Assembly (NCBI RefSeq): GCF_003570925.1
Contig: NZ_QXIS01000030.1
Coordinates: 1-64,000 of the forward strand
Source: Candidatus Cryosericum terrychapinii
GTDB lineage: Bacteria; Caldisericota; Caldisericia; Cryosericales; Cryosericaceae
Reading direction: 5' to 3'
Length of the DNA: 64,000 nucleotides
Under the pieces are notes generated by a model, which did no database searches, was not told where the DNA came from, and saw only the letters and a list, made by a program, of their open reading frames with translations. Position numbers and translations under genes: made by a program. The first letter of the stretch is position 1. Every line of letters begins with the position of its first letter. Below are positions 43,916 to 48,304 of this stretch, in pieces.

Positions 43916-44971
43916 TCAGTCTTCGTGTATAGCTGCGCGCGGAGCCGCTGGGGTCCGGAACGTGGTATCCGACCCTGTCGTGAGGCTGCCATCTGGTGCG
44001 ACCCGCACCAGGCGCGTGTGATACAGCGTACTTGGTTTGAGCCCCACAACTGCAAGGTCGACATTGTAAGTCATGTTTCCGAGGAGTGGACCTTGCTTGT
44101 CCGTGGCGTAGTTGTAGATTTCGGAAACACCATATTCGAAGAACCAGAGGGCCGGTTCACCATCAGGCTTGATGACTCCGTTCAACACTACCGACGCCGA
44201 CGTTACCGATGAAGGGACAAGTGTCGTGGCAAGGCTTTCGAGCTCGACTGGAGCGGACTGAGGCGTGAGAATCGTCGCGGGGACCGAACTTCTCGTTGTC
44301 ACGGCAGGTTTGGCCACGACGGCTGTTTTCGCCGAAGTCGCAGGTTTGGTCACGACGGCTGTCTTCACTGGAGTTGCAGGCTTGGGAGCTACTGCAATAG
44401 TGATCGGCGACTTGACGATGTGGTAGTATGTGACGTACGTCCAGCCGCTGAACAGCCAACCGAGGGTTGTCCTCTTCCGATCATACGTGTGGGCGTTGAA
44501 GAGGGGTTGGCCGTTCGACTGCTTGGCCGAGACAAACACGGCGTGACGCTGGCCCAGCCAGTTGCCAAAAATGGCAACGTCGCCAGGTTGCAGGCCGGTC
44601 GGCGCACGTAAACTCGAGGACGTCTTCCAGACAGTGGCTTTGAGGGTGTTCGTCAGGAAGGCATCCAGGTTTGTGCACTGCGCAATGCTTCCGCTCTTGT
44701 CGACCGAAGGGCTTGTGCGCAGGTTGAGGCCGCCTGCGATAAGGCACTGTGAAACGAAGTTGGCACAATCATTGAAGCCGTAGCTCTGGAACTTGGGATT
44801 GCGCTTGTTCCACCACTGGTCGGCATACTGGATGGCTTTAAGAGGGTTATACGTCCCAGCGCTGACGCGTGGGGCAGGAGAGAGAACCATCGCGGAGGCG
44901 GTCGCCACGATGATGGCCAGGACGACGACGATCTGCCTTCTCCACCGTGCACCTGGTTTCGAGTTTATCAC
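43916..44971 (-). CDS. Secreted amidase-domain protein with FN3-like C-terminus
   Basis: A 351-residue exported protein. The signal peptide ends near VSA-GT (38-40). Residues about 41-205 match the Amidase_6 domain: YNPLKAIQYADQWW, then the catalytic Cys69 in GFNDCANFVSQ, and GQRHAVFVS with the histidine. A Lys/Pro/Ala/Thr-rich linker (KPATPVKTAVV repeated) joins a C-terminal domain resembling fibronectin type III. Likely hydrolyses cell-wall peptides. The start is GTG 44971 with AGAGGAG; the longer frame crosses the promoter at 45048-45075. Confidence 0.8.
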   Translation of the reverse strand: MINSKPGARWRRQIVVVLAIIVATASAMVLSPAPRVSAGTYNPLKAIQYADQWWNKRNPKFQSYGFNDCANFVSQCLIAGGLNLRTSPSVDKSGSIAQCTNLDAFLTNTLKATVWKTSSSLRAPTGLQPGDVAIFGNWLGQRHAVFVSAKQSNGQPLFNAHTYDRKRTTLGWLFSGWTYVTYYHIVKSPITIAVAPKPATPVKTAVVTKPATSAKTAVVAKPAVTTRSSVPATILTPQSAPVELESLATTLVPSSVTSASVVLNGVIKPDGEPALWFFEYGVSEIYNYATDKQGPLLGNMTYNVDLAVVGLKPSTLYHTRLVRVAPDGSLTTGSDTTFRTPAAPRAAIHED

Positions 44972-45047
44972 AGTACAACTCCTCTCTTCCCGCGTGGTCG
45001 GACTTGGGATGGCCAGATAAGGGGTACCCTTCCCTTCTGCCGAGTTC

Positions 45048-45075
45048 ATTAAAGCCGAGCCGGTTGTCTTGTCAA
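45048..45075 (-). promoter_or_regulatory. Promoter of the secreted amidase gene
   Basis: TTGACA (45075-45070), 16 bases, TTTAAT (45053-45048), giving a leader of about 70 bases. Confidence 0.6.
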
Positions 45076-45107
45076 GAGTGCCAGGGTACGATCTGCCGCT
45101 TCCGTCG

Positions 45108-46385
45108 CTAACGAAGGAGATTGCGAAGCGTGTCGACCAGGAGAAGGACGTTGAGGCCACTGACGACGACGGTCGTCGTCCACAGGAAGACGCGGTCGAG
45201 TACAGTGTTTACATGCTTTCCCATCACACGCGGGTTTGAGGTGAGCAGAATCTGCAGGACGATCGTCCACGGTAGCTGAATGGAGAGTGCTATCTGGCTG
45301 AAGATCAGGCCCTTGAACGGGTTGGTGATCACGAGTGTAAACAGCAGAGCCCCAAGCAGTGTTATCATGATGCCCAGCTTGGTATGATTGTCCGACGGAT
45401 CATAGGGTTCCCCCGACATGCCGGCAACAATACTGCCGCCTGCCATGCCCGCAGTGACCGAAGATGAGAGGCCGGCCATGAGCAGTGCTCCACCGAAGAC
45501 GATGGCGGCTGCCCGGCCCAGCATCGGCCGCAACATGGCTTGAGCCTGTCCAAGTTCTGTGACGGCGGTTCGGCTGGCAAAGAAGGTCGCTGCGGCAAGG
45601 ATGATCATGGAGCTGTTGATGGCCCAGCCGATCACCATGGAGTTCAGGGTGTCCACGAACTCGAACCGGAGTTGCTTTTCTATGACGTCTGCGCCCTTCT
45701 GGTTCAGCTGGCGGCTCTGGATGATCTCGCTGTGCAGGAAGAGATTATGCGGCATGACGACCGCGCCGAGGACACTCATGATGACAGGAATGGAGCCCAG
45801 GGGTATGGCGGGGGTAACCCATCCGGTCGCCACCTCTGCCCAGGGGATATGCACAAGCGACAACTCATACAGGAAAGAAAGCCCTATCAGCGACACGAAT
45901 GCGATGATGAGCTTCTCGATACGCCGGTAGCCGTTGCTGAGAAGGAGCCAGATGACAGCGGCCGACACGAGAATGGCGCCGATACGCAGAGGCAGCTTGA
46001 ACAGCAGGTTAAGCCCGATGGCGGCTCCCATGATTTCCGCAAGGGCCGTGGAGATGCAGGCGGCAACGGCCGAGCCCAGAACAAGGCGGGCGAACCAGGG
46101 ACGCATGAACTTCGTGGCTGCCTCGGAGATGCACAGGCCCGTAACGATGCCAAGGTGGGCGGCATTGTGTTGCAAGACGATAAGCATCAGTGTCGACAGT
46201 GTCACCATCCACAGGAGGCGGTAACCATAGAGGGAGCCTGCAGCAACATTCGAGGCCCAGTTGCCAGGGTCGATGAAACCCACGGTGACGAGAAAGCCGG
46301 GACCAATGTACTTCAGGAGCTCCAATGCCTGAAGACGCGGATTGTGACCACTGAATGCTTCCTGGATCTGTGTGCGCAGACTCAT
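45108..46385 (-). CDS. Nramp divalent metal transporter (canonical Mn/Fe type)
   Basis: A 425-residue SLC11-type transporter with about eleven helices. Helix 1 has the metal-binding DPGNW and helix 6 has MPHNLFLHS, the full canonical set for transition metals, so proton-coupled Mn2+ or Fe2+ uptake is likely. The ATG lies seven bases after the -10 box with only a GAGGT directly abutting it, so the mRNA is probably leaderless. A second, divergent Nramp is encoded at 52706-53983. Confidence 0.92.
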   Translation of the reverse strand: MSLRTQIQEAFSGHNPRLQALELLKYIGPGFLVTVGFIDPGNWASNVAAGSLYGYRLLWMVTLSTLMLIVLQHNAAHLGIVTGLCISEAATKFMRPWFARLVLGSAVAACISTALAEIMGAAIGLNLLFKLPLRIGAILVSAAVIWLLLSNGYRRIEKLIIAFVSLIGLSFLYELSLVHIPWAEVATGWVTPAIPLGSIPVIMSVLGAVVMPHNLFLHSEIIQSRQLNQKGADVIEKQLRFEFVDTLNSMVIGWAINSSMIILAAATFFASRTAVTELGQAQAMLRPMLGRAAAIVFGGALLMAGLSSSVTAGMAGGSIVAGMSGEPYDPSDNHTKLGIMITLLGALLFTLVITNPFKGLIFSQIALSIQLPWTIVLQILLTSNPRVMGKHVNTVLDRVFLWTTTVVVSGLNVLLLVDTLRNLLR

Positions 46386-46461: not shown

Positions 46462-46489
46462 TTGTACCGCGCCTGACAACTCCTATAAT
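46462..46489 (+). promoter_or_regulatory. Promoter of the orphan cas6 gene
   Basis: TTGTAC (46462-46467), 16 bases, consensus TATAAT (46484-46489). It predicts a leader of about 105 bases that contains a palindrome, CGTTCGAACG (46508-46517), and a stem at 46518-46540 (AGC-A-CCCC with GGGG-C-GCT). Confidence 0.65.
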
Positions 46490-46600
46490 AATATATCTAC
46501 GGCAGGACGTTCGAACGAGCACCCCAGTGGATGGGGCGCTTCATGGCCATAATGGCTCACCTTTCCGGTTGTCTGTTCTCTGAATTGAGTGGAGGTTTCT

Positions 46601-48253
46601 ATGCGTATCAGGATCGAAGTACAGAGCGCTCTCGACAAGTTCATTTTACCTCAGGGGTACAACCCCTATGTGCAGGGGCTTGTCAATGCGTGCATCCCCG
46701 AAGACATCAAGTGGTCTGGCATCGCGACGGGCACGGAAGAAGCCCATTTCAAGCTCTTCACCTTCTCACAGCTGTATGCGAAGTCGGTGGAGCGTATCGA
46801 TATTGCCCCGCGTGATGGAGTTGAAGCGGACGGACACGTTCACTATCAGCTGGTGATGTCATCACCTGCCTGGTTCTACCTGTCGTCGCCCAGTCCCGAG
46901 TTCATCGAGGCGCTTGTGCCTCGCCTGGAACAGGCCCATGACCTTCACCTTGAGCGGAACCTAGTGCAATCGGTACGTGTTGTCGCAGCCTACCCCGTTA
47001 CCATCCCCACTCACGGGCTGGTCACATGGCGAATTCGCACCATCAGCCCCATCACCGTGTACCAGAGCGAGGGCAAGGATAACAACTCCGCACACTACTT
47101 TGCGCCCGATGACCCGTTGTTCGCCAAGCTTGTCCTGGATAATGCCGTTCGCAAGTACTACGCCTGGACACAGGAGAAGGCCCCCAGCGATGGGTTCAGC
47201 ATCAGTTGTCTCGACCATACACCGCATCTTGCCGTCATTTCGTTCAAGGACACGCCTGTGCATGGCTATACCGGACGTTTCCAGTTGACTGGAGATGCCA
47301 AGCTGTTGTCGTTCCTGTACGAATCCGGCCTGGGAGGCAAGAACTCTCATGGCTTCGGGATGTTCGACATCGCGCCTGAGGGAGAGGACGACGCTCATTG
47401 GCATCGCAGGACAGAAGAAGACACTCGTGAGGTGCACAGGACACCTCCGACGCCTATGGCTGCGGCCGACCAGGAAAGACCGGGCCGCCATGAGCGGTCG
47501 GACAGTCGTGGGCAGGAAGGACACGTGTGGCACGGCGAGCATCACAGTGCCACCGGCGAGAGCAGCTCCTCGAGGAGCACAGGGTCCAGAGACGACCGGA
47601 CGCATGCCAGCCGCCCGCATCTCCAAGGTGAGCATTCAGACCGCCCGTATTCAGACAGGCCGCATACAGAACGGTCTGCGTCGGACCGTCCACATACAGA
47701 TAGACCATATTCGGATCGGGCGCGCACCGACAGGCCGTACTCTGACCGGCCCAAGGCGGAGGGACCTCGACTCGACGGCACGCCAGGGACGAGCCGCGGA
47801 ACGGGACGTCCAGGTAAGGACAGTCGAGGGTCTCAGGCTTCTCCGCGCGGTGGTTCTTCTGATCACAGAGGTCCTCGTGGCACAGAGGAACCGCGTCGCA
47901 AGTTTGTCAGCCGCTATGCTCCCGACATCAAGCCGGTGAGCCACGAGAAGGCGGCTACCGGTTCCTACAGCATCTGGGATGGCAAGGCGAAGACCGAACT
48001 GCCGCGGTTCGTCCGTCCGGACGGCACCGAGAGCACCGGCGGTCCTCGTCCAAACGAGCATCGTGGGGGACCTCGTCCTGGTGTTTCTGGTCGTTCTTCA
48101 AGCGGAGACGCGCGTTCTCAGAGCGACAGACGTGGTGGGAGTTTCGGTGCTTCGAGACCAGGCGGAAGCCCCGGTTCGGTGCACCGCCCCAGCGGAGGGC
48201 ACGGTGATCCGCGCGATCACAGGGGCAGCAAGGGCGGTCCCTACAACCACTAG
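46601..48253 (+). CDS. cas6: Orphan Cas6-like CRISPR RNA endonuclease with long disordered repeat tail
   Basis: A 550-residue protein. Residues 1-258 resemble Cas6: KLFTFSQL (51-58) in the first ferredoxin-like domain and the glycine-rich RNA-binding end GLGGKNSHGFGMF (243-255). Cas6 cuts CRISPR transcripts and is usually 220-280 residues. Residues about 265-550 are a disordered tail rich in Arg, Ser, Gly, Asp, His and Pro, with SDRPYSDRPHTER-type repeats at 346-384 and RGG-like pieces near the end. The usual catalytic histidine region (LHxEG) reads SGIATG; His49 just before KLFTFS is a possible substitute. No array or other cas gene is in the window. ATG after GGAGG. Confidence 0.75.
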   Translation: MRIRIEVQSALDKFILPQGYNPYVQGLVNACIPEDIKWSGIATGTEEAHFKLFTFSQLYAKSVERIDIAPRDGVEADGHVHYQLVMSSPAWFYLSSPSPEFIEALVPRLEQAHDLHLERNLVQSVRVVAAYPVTIPTHGLVTWRIRTISPITVYQSEGKDNNSAHYFAPDDPLFAKLVLDNAVRKYYAWTQEKAPSDGFSISCLDHTPHLAVISFKDTPVHGYTGRFQLTGDAKLLSFLYESGLGGKNSHGFGMFDIAPEGEDDAHWHRRTEEDTREVHRTPPTPMAAADQERPGRHERSDSRGQEGHVWHGEHHSATGESSSSRSTGSRDDRTHASRPHLQGEHSDRPYSDRPHTERSASDRPHTDRPYSDRARTDRPYSDRPKAEGPRLDGTPGTSRGTGRPGKDSRGSQASPRGGSSDHRGPRGTEEPRRKFVSRYAPDIKPVSHEKAATGSYSIWDGKAKTELPRFVRPDGTESTGGPRPNEHRGGPRPGVSGRSSSGDARSQSDRRGGSFGASRPGGSPGSVHRPSGGHGDPRDHRGSKGGPYNH

Positions 48254-48276: not shown

Positions 48277-48304
48277 AAGGGAGGCGCCATACGGCGCCTC
48301 CCTT
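48277..48304. terminator. Hairpin after cas6
   Basis: AAGGGAGGCGCC (48277-48288) and GGCGCCTCCCTT (48293-48304) are perfect 12-bp complements around ATAC. No T-run follows. Confidence 0.6.

Follow-up and report, generated by a model that had tools for sequence, protein, structure and literature searches.

A Cas6b-type protein kept outside CRISPR across Candidatus Cryosericum, with a degenerate active site and a disordered tail bearing a conserved block

The catalytic triad of the PfuCas6 endoribonuclease consists of Tyr31, His46 and Lys52, and the Y31A and H46A variants show no detectable activity (PMC3652601). Departures from this arrangement have been described: the Cas6 protein of S. solfataricus lacks the catalytic His and still cleaves RNA through a network of basic residues, and the RAMP protein PfuCas6nc (PDB 3UFC) is described as non-catalytic (PMC3652601). 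The entry title of PH0350 (PDB 3QJJ) reads 'One RAMP protein binding different RNA substrates'. At a broader scale, reviews of CRISPR exaptation document reuse mostly of effector modules or guide RNAs (PMC12669027, PMC8730458). Our search of the open-access literature returned no report of an orphan Cas6 with a disordered tail or of a lone Cas6 retained in the manner presented below, and no report on CRISPR in Cryosericum. The orphan gene analysed here is best explained, with a probability of roughly 0.6, as a Cas6b taken out of CRISPR that is probably deficient in cleavage and serves as an adaptor or regulator, binding RNA and presenting a docking motif on its tail.

The gene lies in a 64-kb window (the whole stretch of DNA analysed), which corresponds to contig 24 in an assembly of 1.49 Mb and 81% completeness. 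It encodes a protein of 550 amino acids and has an ATG start with a GGAGG motif 5 nt upstream (Table 1). The sequence-only reading of this DNA had recognized a Cas6 in the N-terminal half, and both profile and structure comparisons agree. Residues 1 to 258 match Pfam Cas_Cas6_C (E=1.3e-26, above the cut-off) and NCBIfam cas_cas6 (TIGR01877; E=3.4e-26, above the curated cut-off), and PADLOC matches Cas6b over residues 1 to 257 (E=7e-46). An AlphaFold model of the whole protein, computed from an alignment of 24 relatives, exhibits good confidence over most of the Cas6 domain and pLDDT values below 50 for nearly all positions beyond residue 263. The best Foldseek matches in the PDB are all Cas6 structures (5YI6, 3UFC, 3QJJ, 3I4H and 3PKM), and structure prediction returned no different fold for residues 1 to 258. 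The protein is a member of the Cas6 family by both fold and sequence. Elsewhere in the window, at positions 43916-45160 of the reverse strand, a gene adjoining HPr and PTS enzyme I-like genes encodes a protein in which an Amidase_6 domain is accompanied by a repetitive segment of Ala, Thr, Lys and Pro.

Table 1. Features of the orphan cas6 locus, with positions in the 64-kb window.
Feature	Position	Strand	Basis or remark
TATAAT, probable -10 box of a promoter belonging to the gene (tentative)	46484..46489	+	sequence; TATA-rich box conserved in genus alignment
Conserved structured 5' leader, ~104 nt	46497..46600	+	89-90% mean column identity
Leader outer stem	46500-46509 with 46574-46582	+	alignment fold
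Leader inner hairpins	46519-46539, 46545-46557, 46559-46569	+	alignment fold
Orphan Cas6 with disordered tail, 550 aa	46601..48253	+	probably monocistronic
Cas6 (tandem RAMP) domain, residues 1-258	46601..47374	+	profiles, AlphaFold/Foldseek, PADLOC; dN/dS 0.05-0.12
Degenerate active site (His to G19, Tyr to N29, His to I41, Lys-Arg to E47-A48), with K51 retained	46655..46753	+	alignment column counts
Glycine-rich loop GLGGKNSHGFGM, residues 243-254	47327..47362	+	retained, in common with CRISPR-type Cas6
Variable disordered linker, residues 259-343	47375..47629	+	alignment, dN/dS, AlphaFold
SDRP[Y/H]/TDRP repeat region, residues 344-391	47630..47773	+	lineage-specific
Disordered Arg/Gly/Ser segment, residues 392-427	47774..47881	+	dN/dS, AlphaFold
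56-residue conserved block (TEEPRRKFVSRYAPDIKPVSHEKAATGSYSIWDGKAKTELPRFVRPDGTESTGGPR), residues 428-483	47882..48049	+	89-100% identical across genus; dN/dS 0-0.15
Gly/Ser/Arg-rich disordered C-terminus, residues 484-550	48050..48250	+	alignment, AlphaFold, composition
Hairpin with 10-bp stem and ATAC loop after the stop codon; the transcript probably ends here	48279..48302	+	sequence and alignment; kept in relatives

The absence of any array or other cas gene from the 64-kb window, already remarked upon in the sequence-only reading, was confirmed and extends to the assembly and the genus. A scan for spaced repeats of three copies, covering 1,486,584 of 1,487,053 assembly positions (the assembly has N at 2,940, one entire 2.5-kb contig included), identified no CRISPR array, and the same script recovered the arrays of G014, the positive control. 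The cas operons that might have been located elsewhere in this genome were likewise not found, and the assembly yielded no Cas1, Cas7 or RAMP gene. Two matches of the array scan were rejected as CRISPR, the first being a 51-bp tandem hairpin repeat and the second a repeat within a coding-like stretch. On contig 13 of this genome (L085:9124-9270), a strong hairpin, GAGACCCCGACCGTACTTCGGAAGGGGTCTC, occurs three times in a row as a 51-bp tandem repeat and resembles a triplicated terminator, and contig 32 (L109:15550-15760) bears a coding-like stretch with tandem repeats rich in Pro/Glu/Val or Ser/Pro/Lys.

Within the genus, Cas1, RAMP-superfamily and Cas7 proteins are absent from 14 of the 15 genomes, three of which are 91-97% complete. 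The sole genome with CRISPR is G014, which retains the orphan Cas6 at its usual locus. Its contig C44 (L124) carries a type I-B operon encoding Cas6, Cas8b, Cas7, Cas5b, Cas3 and Cas1b next to a 44-repeat array; this is the only I-B system seen in the 15 Cryosericum genomes, and it possesses its own tail-less Cas6. A type III locus of G014 encodes an RT-Cas1 fusion (815 aa) and a separate Cas6 of 346 aa. This locus spans contigs C40 and C19, with genes on the reverse strand at L125:2241-4685, L125:4685-5722 and L126:1222-11245, and the two contigs probably adjoin because their arrays share one repeat. Also encoded are one CARF and one Cas10-like protein, together with RAMP proteins of unusual length (515, 796 and 810 aa), for which gRAMP and III-D models give matches. 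No look-alike of either G014 repeat was detected in the genome under study at up to 25% mismatch, nor did shuffled controls give any, and no phage or viral-contig relative was found.

These results bear on whether the protein could be a CRISPR Cas6 still in service, acting in trans on arrays carried by plasmids, by phages or by regions absent from the assembly. The majority of type III loci are believed to rely on a Cas6 provided in trans (PMC12669027), and the assembly is 81% complete. However, the 91-97% complete genomes show the same absence of Cas1, Cas7 and RAMP genes, no relatives on phages or viral contigs were found, and the canonical active site has been lost, as detailed below; this explanation is largely excluded.

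Among named records, the relatives are Candidatus Cryosericum hinesii, Ca. C. septentrionale and other Caldiserica assemblies. Protein matches to the orphan Cas6 were obtained in 14 of the 15 Ca. Cryosericum genomes, and in the fifteenth, which is 61% complete, the leader of the gene is present at a contig end. Every relative with a long enough contig, including the most divergent, UBA4822, keeps the gene order NRAMP transporter, Cas6-tail gene, MATE, MATE and CBS/MgtE-like gene. Given this fixed order and the genus-wide presence, the orphan cas6 is therefore an inherited genus-core gene and not a mobile fragment. The gene is under strong purifying selection: pairwise dN/dS values (Nei-Gojobori; synonymous sites are saturated in the most divergent pair) are mostly 0.1-0.3 in the tail outside the conserved block, with those of the Cas6 domain and the block listed in Table 1. 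Interspecies indels in the tail are in-frame. A check for frame shifts, which the sequence-only reading had named as potential evidence against translation of the tail, revealed nothing contrary to it. The copy in G001 is broken, and since a run of N sits at the break, this reads as an assembly gap. The gene is translated over its full length and is not degenerating. That it is the decaying remnant of a CRISPR locus since lost, as its solitary position among non-CRISPR neighbours might suggest, is refuted by these selection data, together with the complete copies free of stop codons, the retention in 15 of 15 genomes, and the fixed locus and leader.

Conservation also extends to the non-coding flanks. 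The assignment of the -10 element is tentative because no full sigma-70 consensus on the forward strand passed the promoter scan. In the leader, 98.2% of the pair cells of the alignment are standard pairs, as compared with 38-53% in slid controls; three pairs have both partners changed, in one sequence apiece and mainly in one divergent sequence, and the folding energy of the leader's own sequence (z=0.37) was not better than that of shuffles. The leader structure is thus supported, not proven. When the genus was searched with a covariance model, convincing matches were found only upstream of the orphan cas6 gene, the three extra matches being weak (E 0.1-0.7), and the 64-kb window contains no Rfam match. 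This leader would be a candidate autoregulatory target of the orphan Cas6. Judging from its sequence, the hairpin downstream of the gene may act as a terminator, one without a strong T run.

To place the orphans among their relatives, a maximum-likelihood tree was sampled from the class Caldisericia only, and sister relations are to be judged within that class. The orphans group in one clade (support 100/99), whose sister is the I-B Cas6 of G014 (100/99; 37-38% identity to the orphans). The stem of the orphan clade measures 1.54 changes per site, versus 0.16-0.18 at its first internal split, and such a long stem followed by a short split is as expected for a functional shift and subsequent constraint. 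Complete Cas6 proteins elsewhere in the class comprise about 250-320 residues and lack an orphan-type tail or block. The sister relation to the I-B Cas6 and the rarity of CRISPR in the genus would suit an endogenous CRISPR antagonist, that is, an inactive Cas6 competing for crRNA repeats or effector docking against an incoming I-B system. This is very unlikely, since G014 holds both the orphan and an I-B locus with a 44-repeat array, the genome under study has no repeat-like sequence, and the conserved block of the tail would be left unexplained.

The active site was compared through column counts over 15 CRISPR-type and nine orphan sequences, which reveal the changes that fall on the stem of the orphan clade. 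The His of the PxHY motif, present in 14 of the 15 CRISPR-type proteins, is replaced by Gly19 in the orphans, and the Tyr found in all 15 by Asn29. The catalytic-His column (12 His and 3 Tyr in CRISPR-type proteins) holds Ile41 or Asp, and the Lys-Arg pair preceding FKLFTF has become Glu47 followed by Ala, Val or Gly at position 48. This active-site cluster is lost in all nine aligned orphans, so that of the canonical triad of PfuCas6 only the Lys is kept; Lys51, the core structural motifs and the glycine-rich loop are retained, and the C-terminal loop sequence GLGGKNSHGFG is invariant in orphans. Two hallmarks of a CRISPR endoribonuclease are absent from the orphan, namely the canonical catalytic triad and a CRISPR context of array and cas effector genes. 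Elsewhere in the class, tail-less Cas6 proteins from three genomes of one genus (L150, L151, L152 and L155) have Tyr in the catalytic-His column, with LYLEGF in place of LHxEGF, possibly a second atypical active site in Caldisericia.

The orphan Cas6 has probably ceased to cleave RNA efficiently. This inactivity is likely, not proven, because the S. solfataricus enzyme is active without its His (PMC3652601), although, of the basic network of that enzyme, only the equivalent of Lys51 is clearly present in the orphan. An RNase that remains active through a rearranged catalytic centre and processes cellular non-CRISPR RNA would accord with this precedent, with the retained Lys51 and glycine-rich loop, and with the strong conservation of the protein. 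We nevertheless consider it improbable, as five active-site positions, including the change from Lys-Arg to Glu-Ala, are altered jointly in all orphans, the domain charge is negative, and the region matching the catalytic lysines 25/28 of SsoCas6 contains no Lys.

The net charge of the orphan Cas6 domain ranges from -3 to -6, versus 0 to +16 for CRISPR-type Cas6 of the same class. More than any other observation, this cautions against taking RNA binding for granted, and it argues against strong binding. Accordingly, the Cas6 fold could have moved off RNA to become a protein-protein or dimerisation module, the work being done by the tail block and its Arg-rich flanks; the disappearance of basic residues from the active site and the constraint on the block point the same way. 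The retention of the glycine-rich loop and of R2, K51, K185, K216 and K247 speaks against such a module, which we regard as similarly improbable. Under the preferred reading, in which the domain still contacts RNA, the retained glycine-rich loop would bind structured RNA, possibly including the gene's own leader for autoregulation; we put this forward tentatively, as a proposition almost as probable as its opposite.

The tail comprises 292 residues, slightly more than the 285 originally counted, and its disorder was upheld (pLDDT about 26-50); it ranks among the most hydrophobic-poor 100-residue stretches of the genome's ORFs. The repeats attributed to it fared unevenly. Units of the form [ST][DE]R[PS] number 7 against 0.3 expected, a count reached in 0 of 2000 shuffles, and the varied codons across the SDRP units were confirmed; RGG occurs 3 times against 0.9 expected, and 103 of 2000 shuffles reach this number. 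Thus, SDRP alone is clearly above chance. The emphasis on these repeats as the functional part was not supported in that form; they are lineage-specific. SDRP-region copy number differs between species in 5-residue steps, the [ST][DE]R[PS] count drops to 3 in G006 and 1 in UBA4822/G004, most units are missing in G012, and clustered RGG repeats are not conserved, with none in G006 or G004. We therefore rejected RGG-driven condensation as a conserved core function, and the lost active-site cluster and negative domain charge further weaken a simple reading as an RNA-binding protein plus RGG condensate. Condensate formation by the low-complexity flanks is unlikely and is not needed by the preferred explanation.

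A non-repetitive block within the tail, overlooked by the sequence-only reading, is its most constrained segment. Between the protein under study and that of G004 the block is 89% identical, versus 18-39% for the flanking tail. A search for the tail among Cas6 homologues, as that reading had advised, showed that the complete Cas6 proteins found elsewhere in the class are without this tail and that the block is confined to the orphans, with no other occurrence in 54 genomes of the phylum; it has no Pfam or PDB relative. Its disorder in the AlphaFold model fits a motif that may fold on a partner, and the shallow alignment may also explain it. We envisage, again tentatively, that the tail is a flexible arm whose 56-residue block docks a conserved partner, with the ribosome, RNA polymerase or an RNA-decay enzyme as candidates, making the protein an RNA-binding adaptor or regulator.

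Taken together, genome content, phylogeny, synteny and selection provide good support for an exaptation of Cas6 outside CRISPR; the RNA target, the docking partner and autoregulation are matters of inference. In the Ca. Cryosericum ancestor, a Cas6b-type CRISPR RNA endoribonuclease would have been removed from CRISPR, to be kept throughout from then on as a single, vertically inherited gene. A more specific reading, possible although less likely than not, is that a nuclease-dead Cas6 was domesticated as a non-CRISPR, genus-core RNA regulator, the first such single-subunit case, which would bind its own leader and other cellular RNAs and be linked through the block to the gene-expression machinery. 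If true, an individual crRNA-binding subunit can exit CRISPR and join general cell physiology. The orphan is a natural protein in which to test the chaperone-like, non-catalytic role of Cas6 proposed in PMC3652601, and these uncultured-type bacteria have kept a Cas6 genus-wide though nearly all members are without detectable CRISPR.

Among known systems, the type I-B Cas6b proteins (the C44 operon of G014; PADLOC Cas6b; TIGR01877) share with the orphan the fold, the glycine-rich loop, Lys51 and the sequence family. Unlike them, the orphan is unlinked to any cas gene or array, has lost the catalytic His and Tyr and the adjacent Lys-Arg, and carries a negative net charge and a long tail with a conserved block. 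The Cas6 of S. solfataricus (Sso1437) resembles it in lacking the catalytic His and Tyr and keeping the Lys51 equivalent, but is active on crRNA, serves CRISPR and has no tail. RNase E-type disordered scaffold regions with conserved microdomains (PMC4435900) would be comparable only in how they work, with a disordered arm, short conserved elements and an RNA-acting domain; they have no sequence relation to the orphan. PfuCas6nc (3UFC) and PH0350 (3QJJ) are among the nearest solved folds to the orphan domain. The non-catalytic Pyrococcus proteins differ in being about 240 residues long and tail-less, and in that PfuCas6nc has a catalytic Cas6 paralogue within its own organism; by analogy of function, they would be its nearest precedents.
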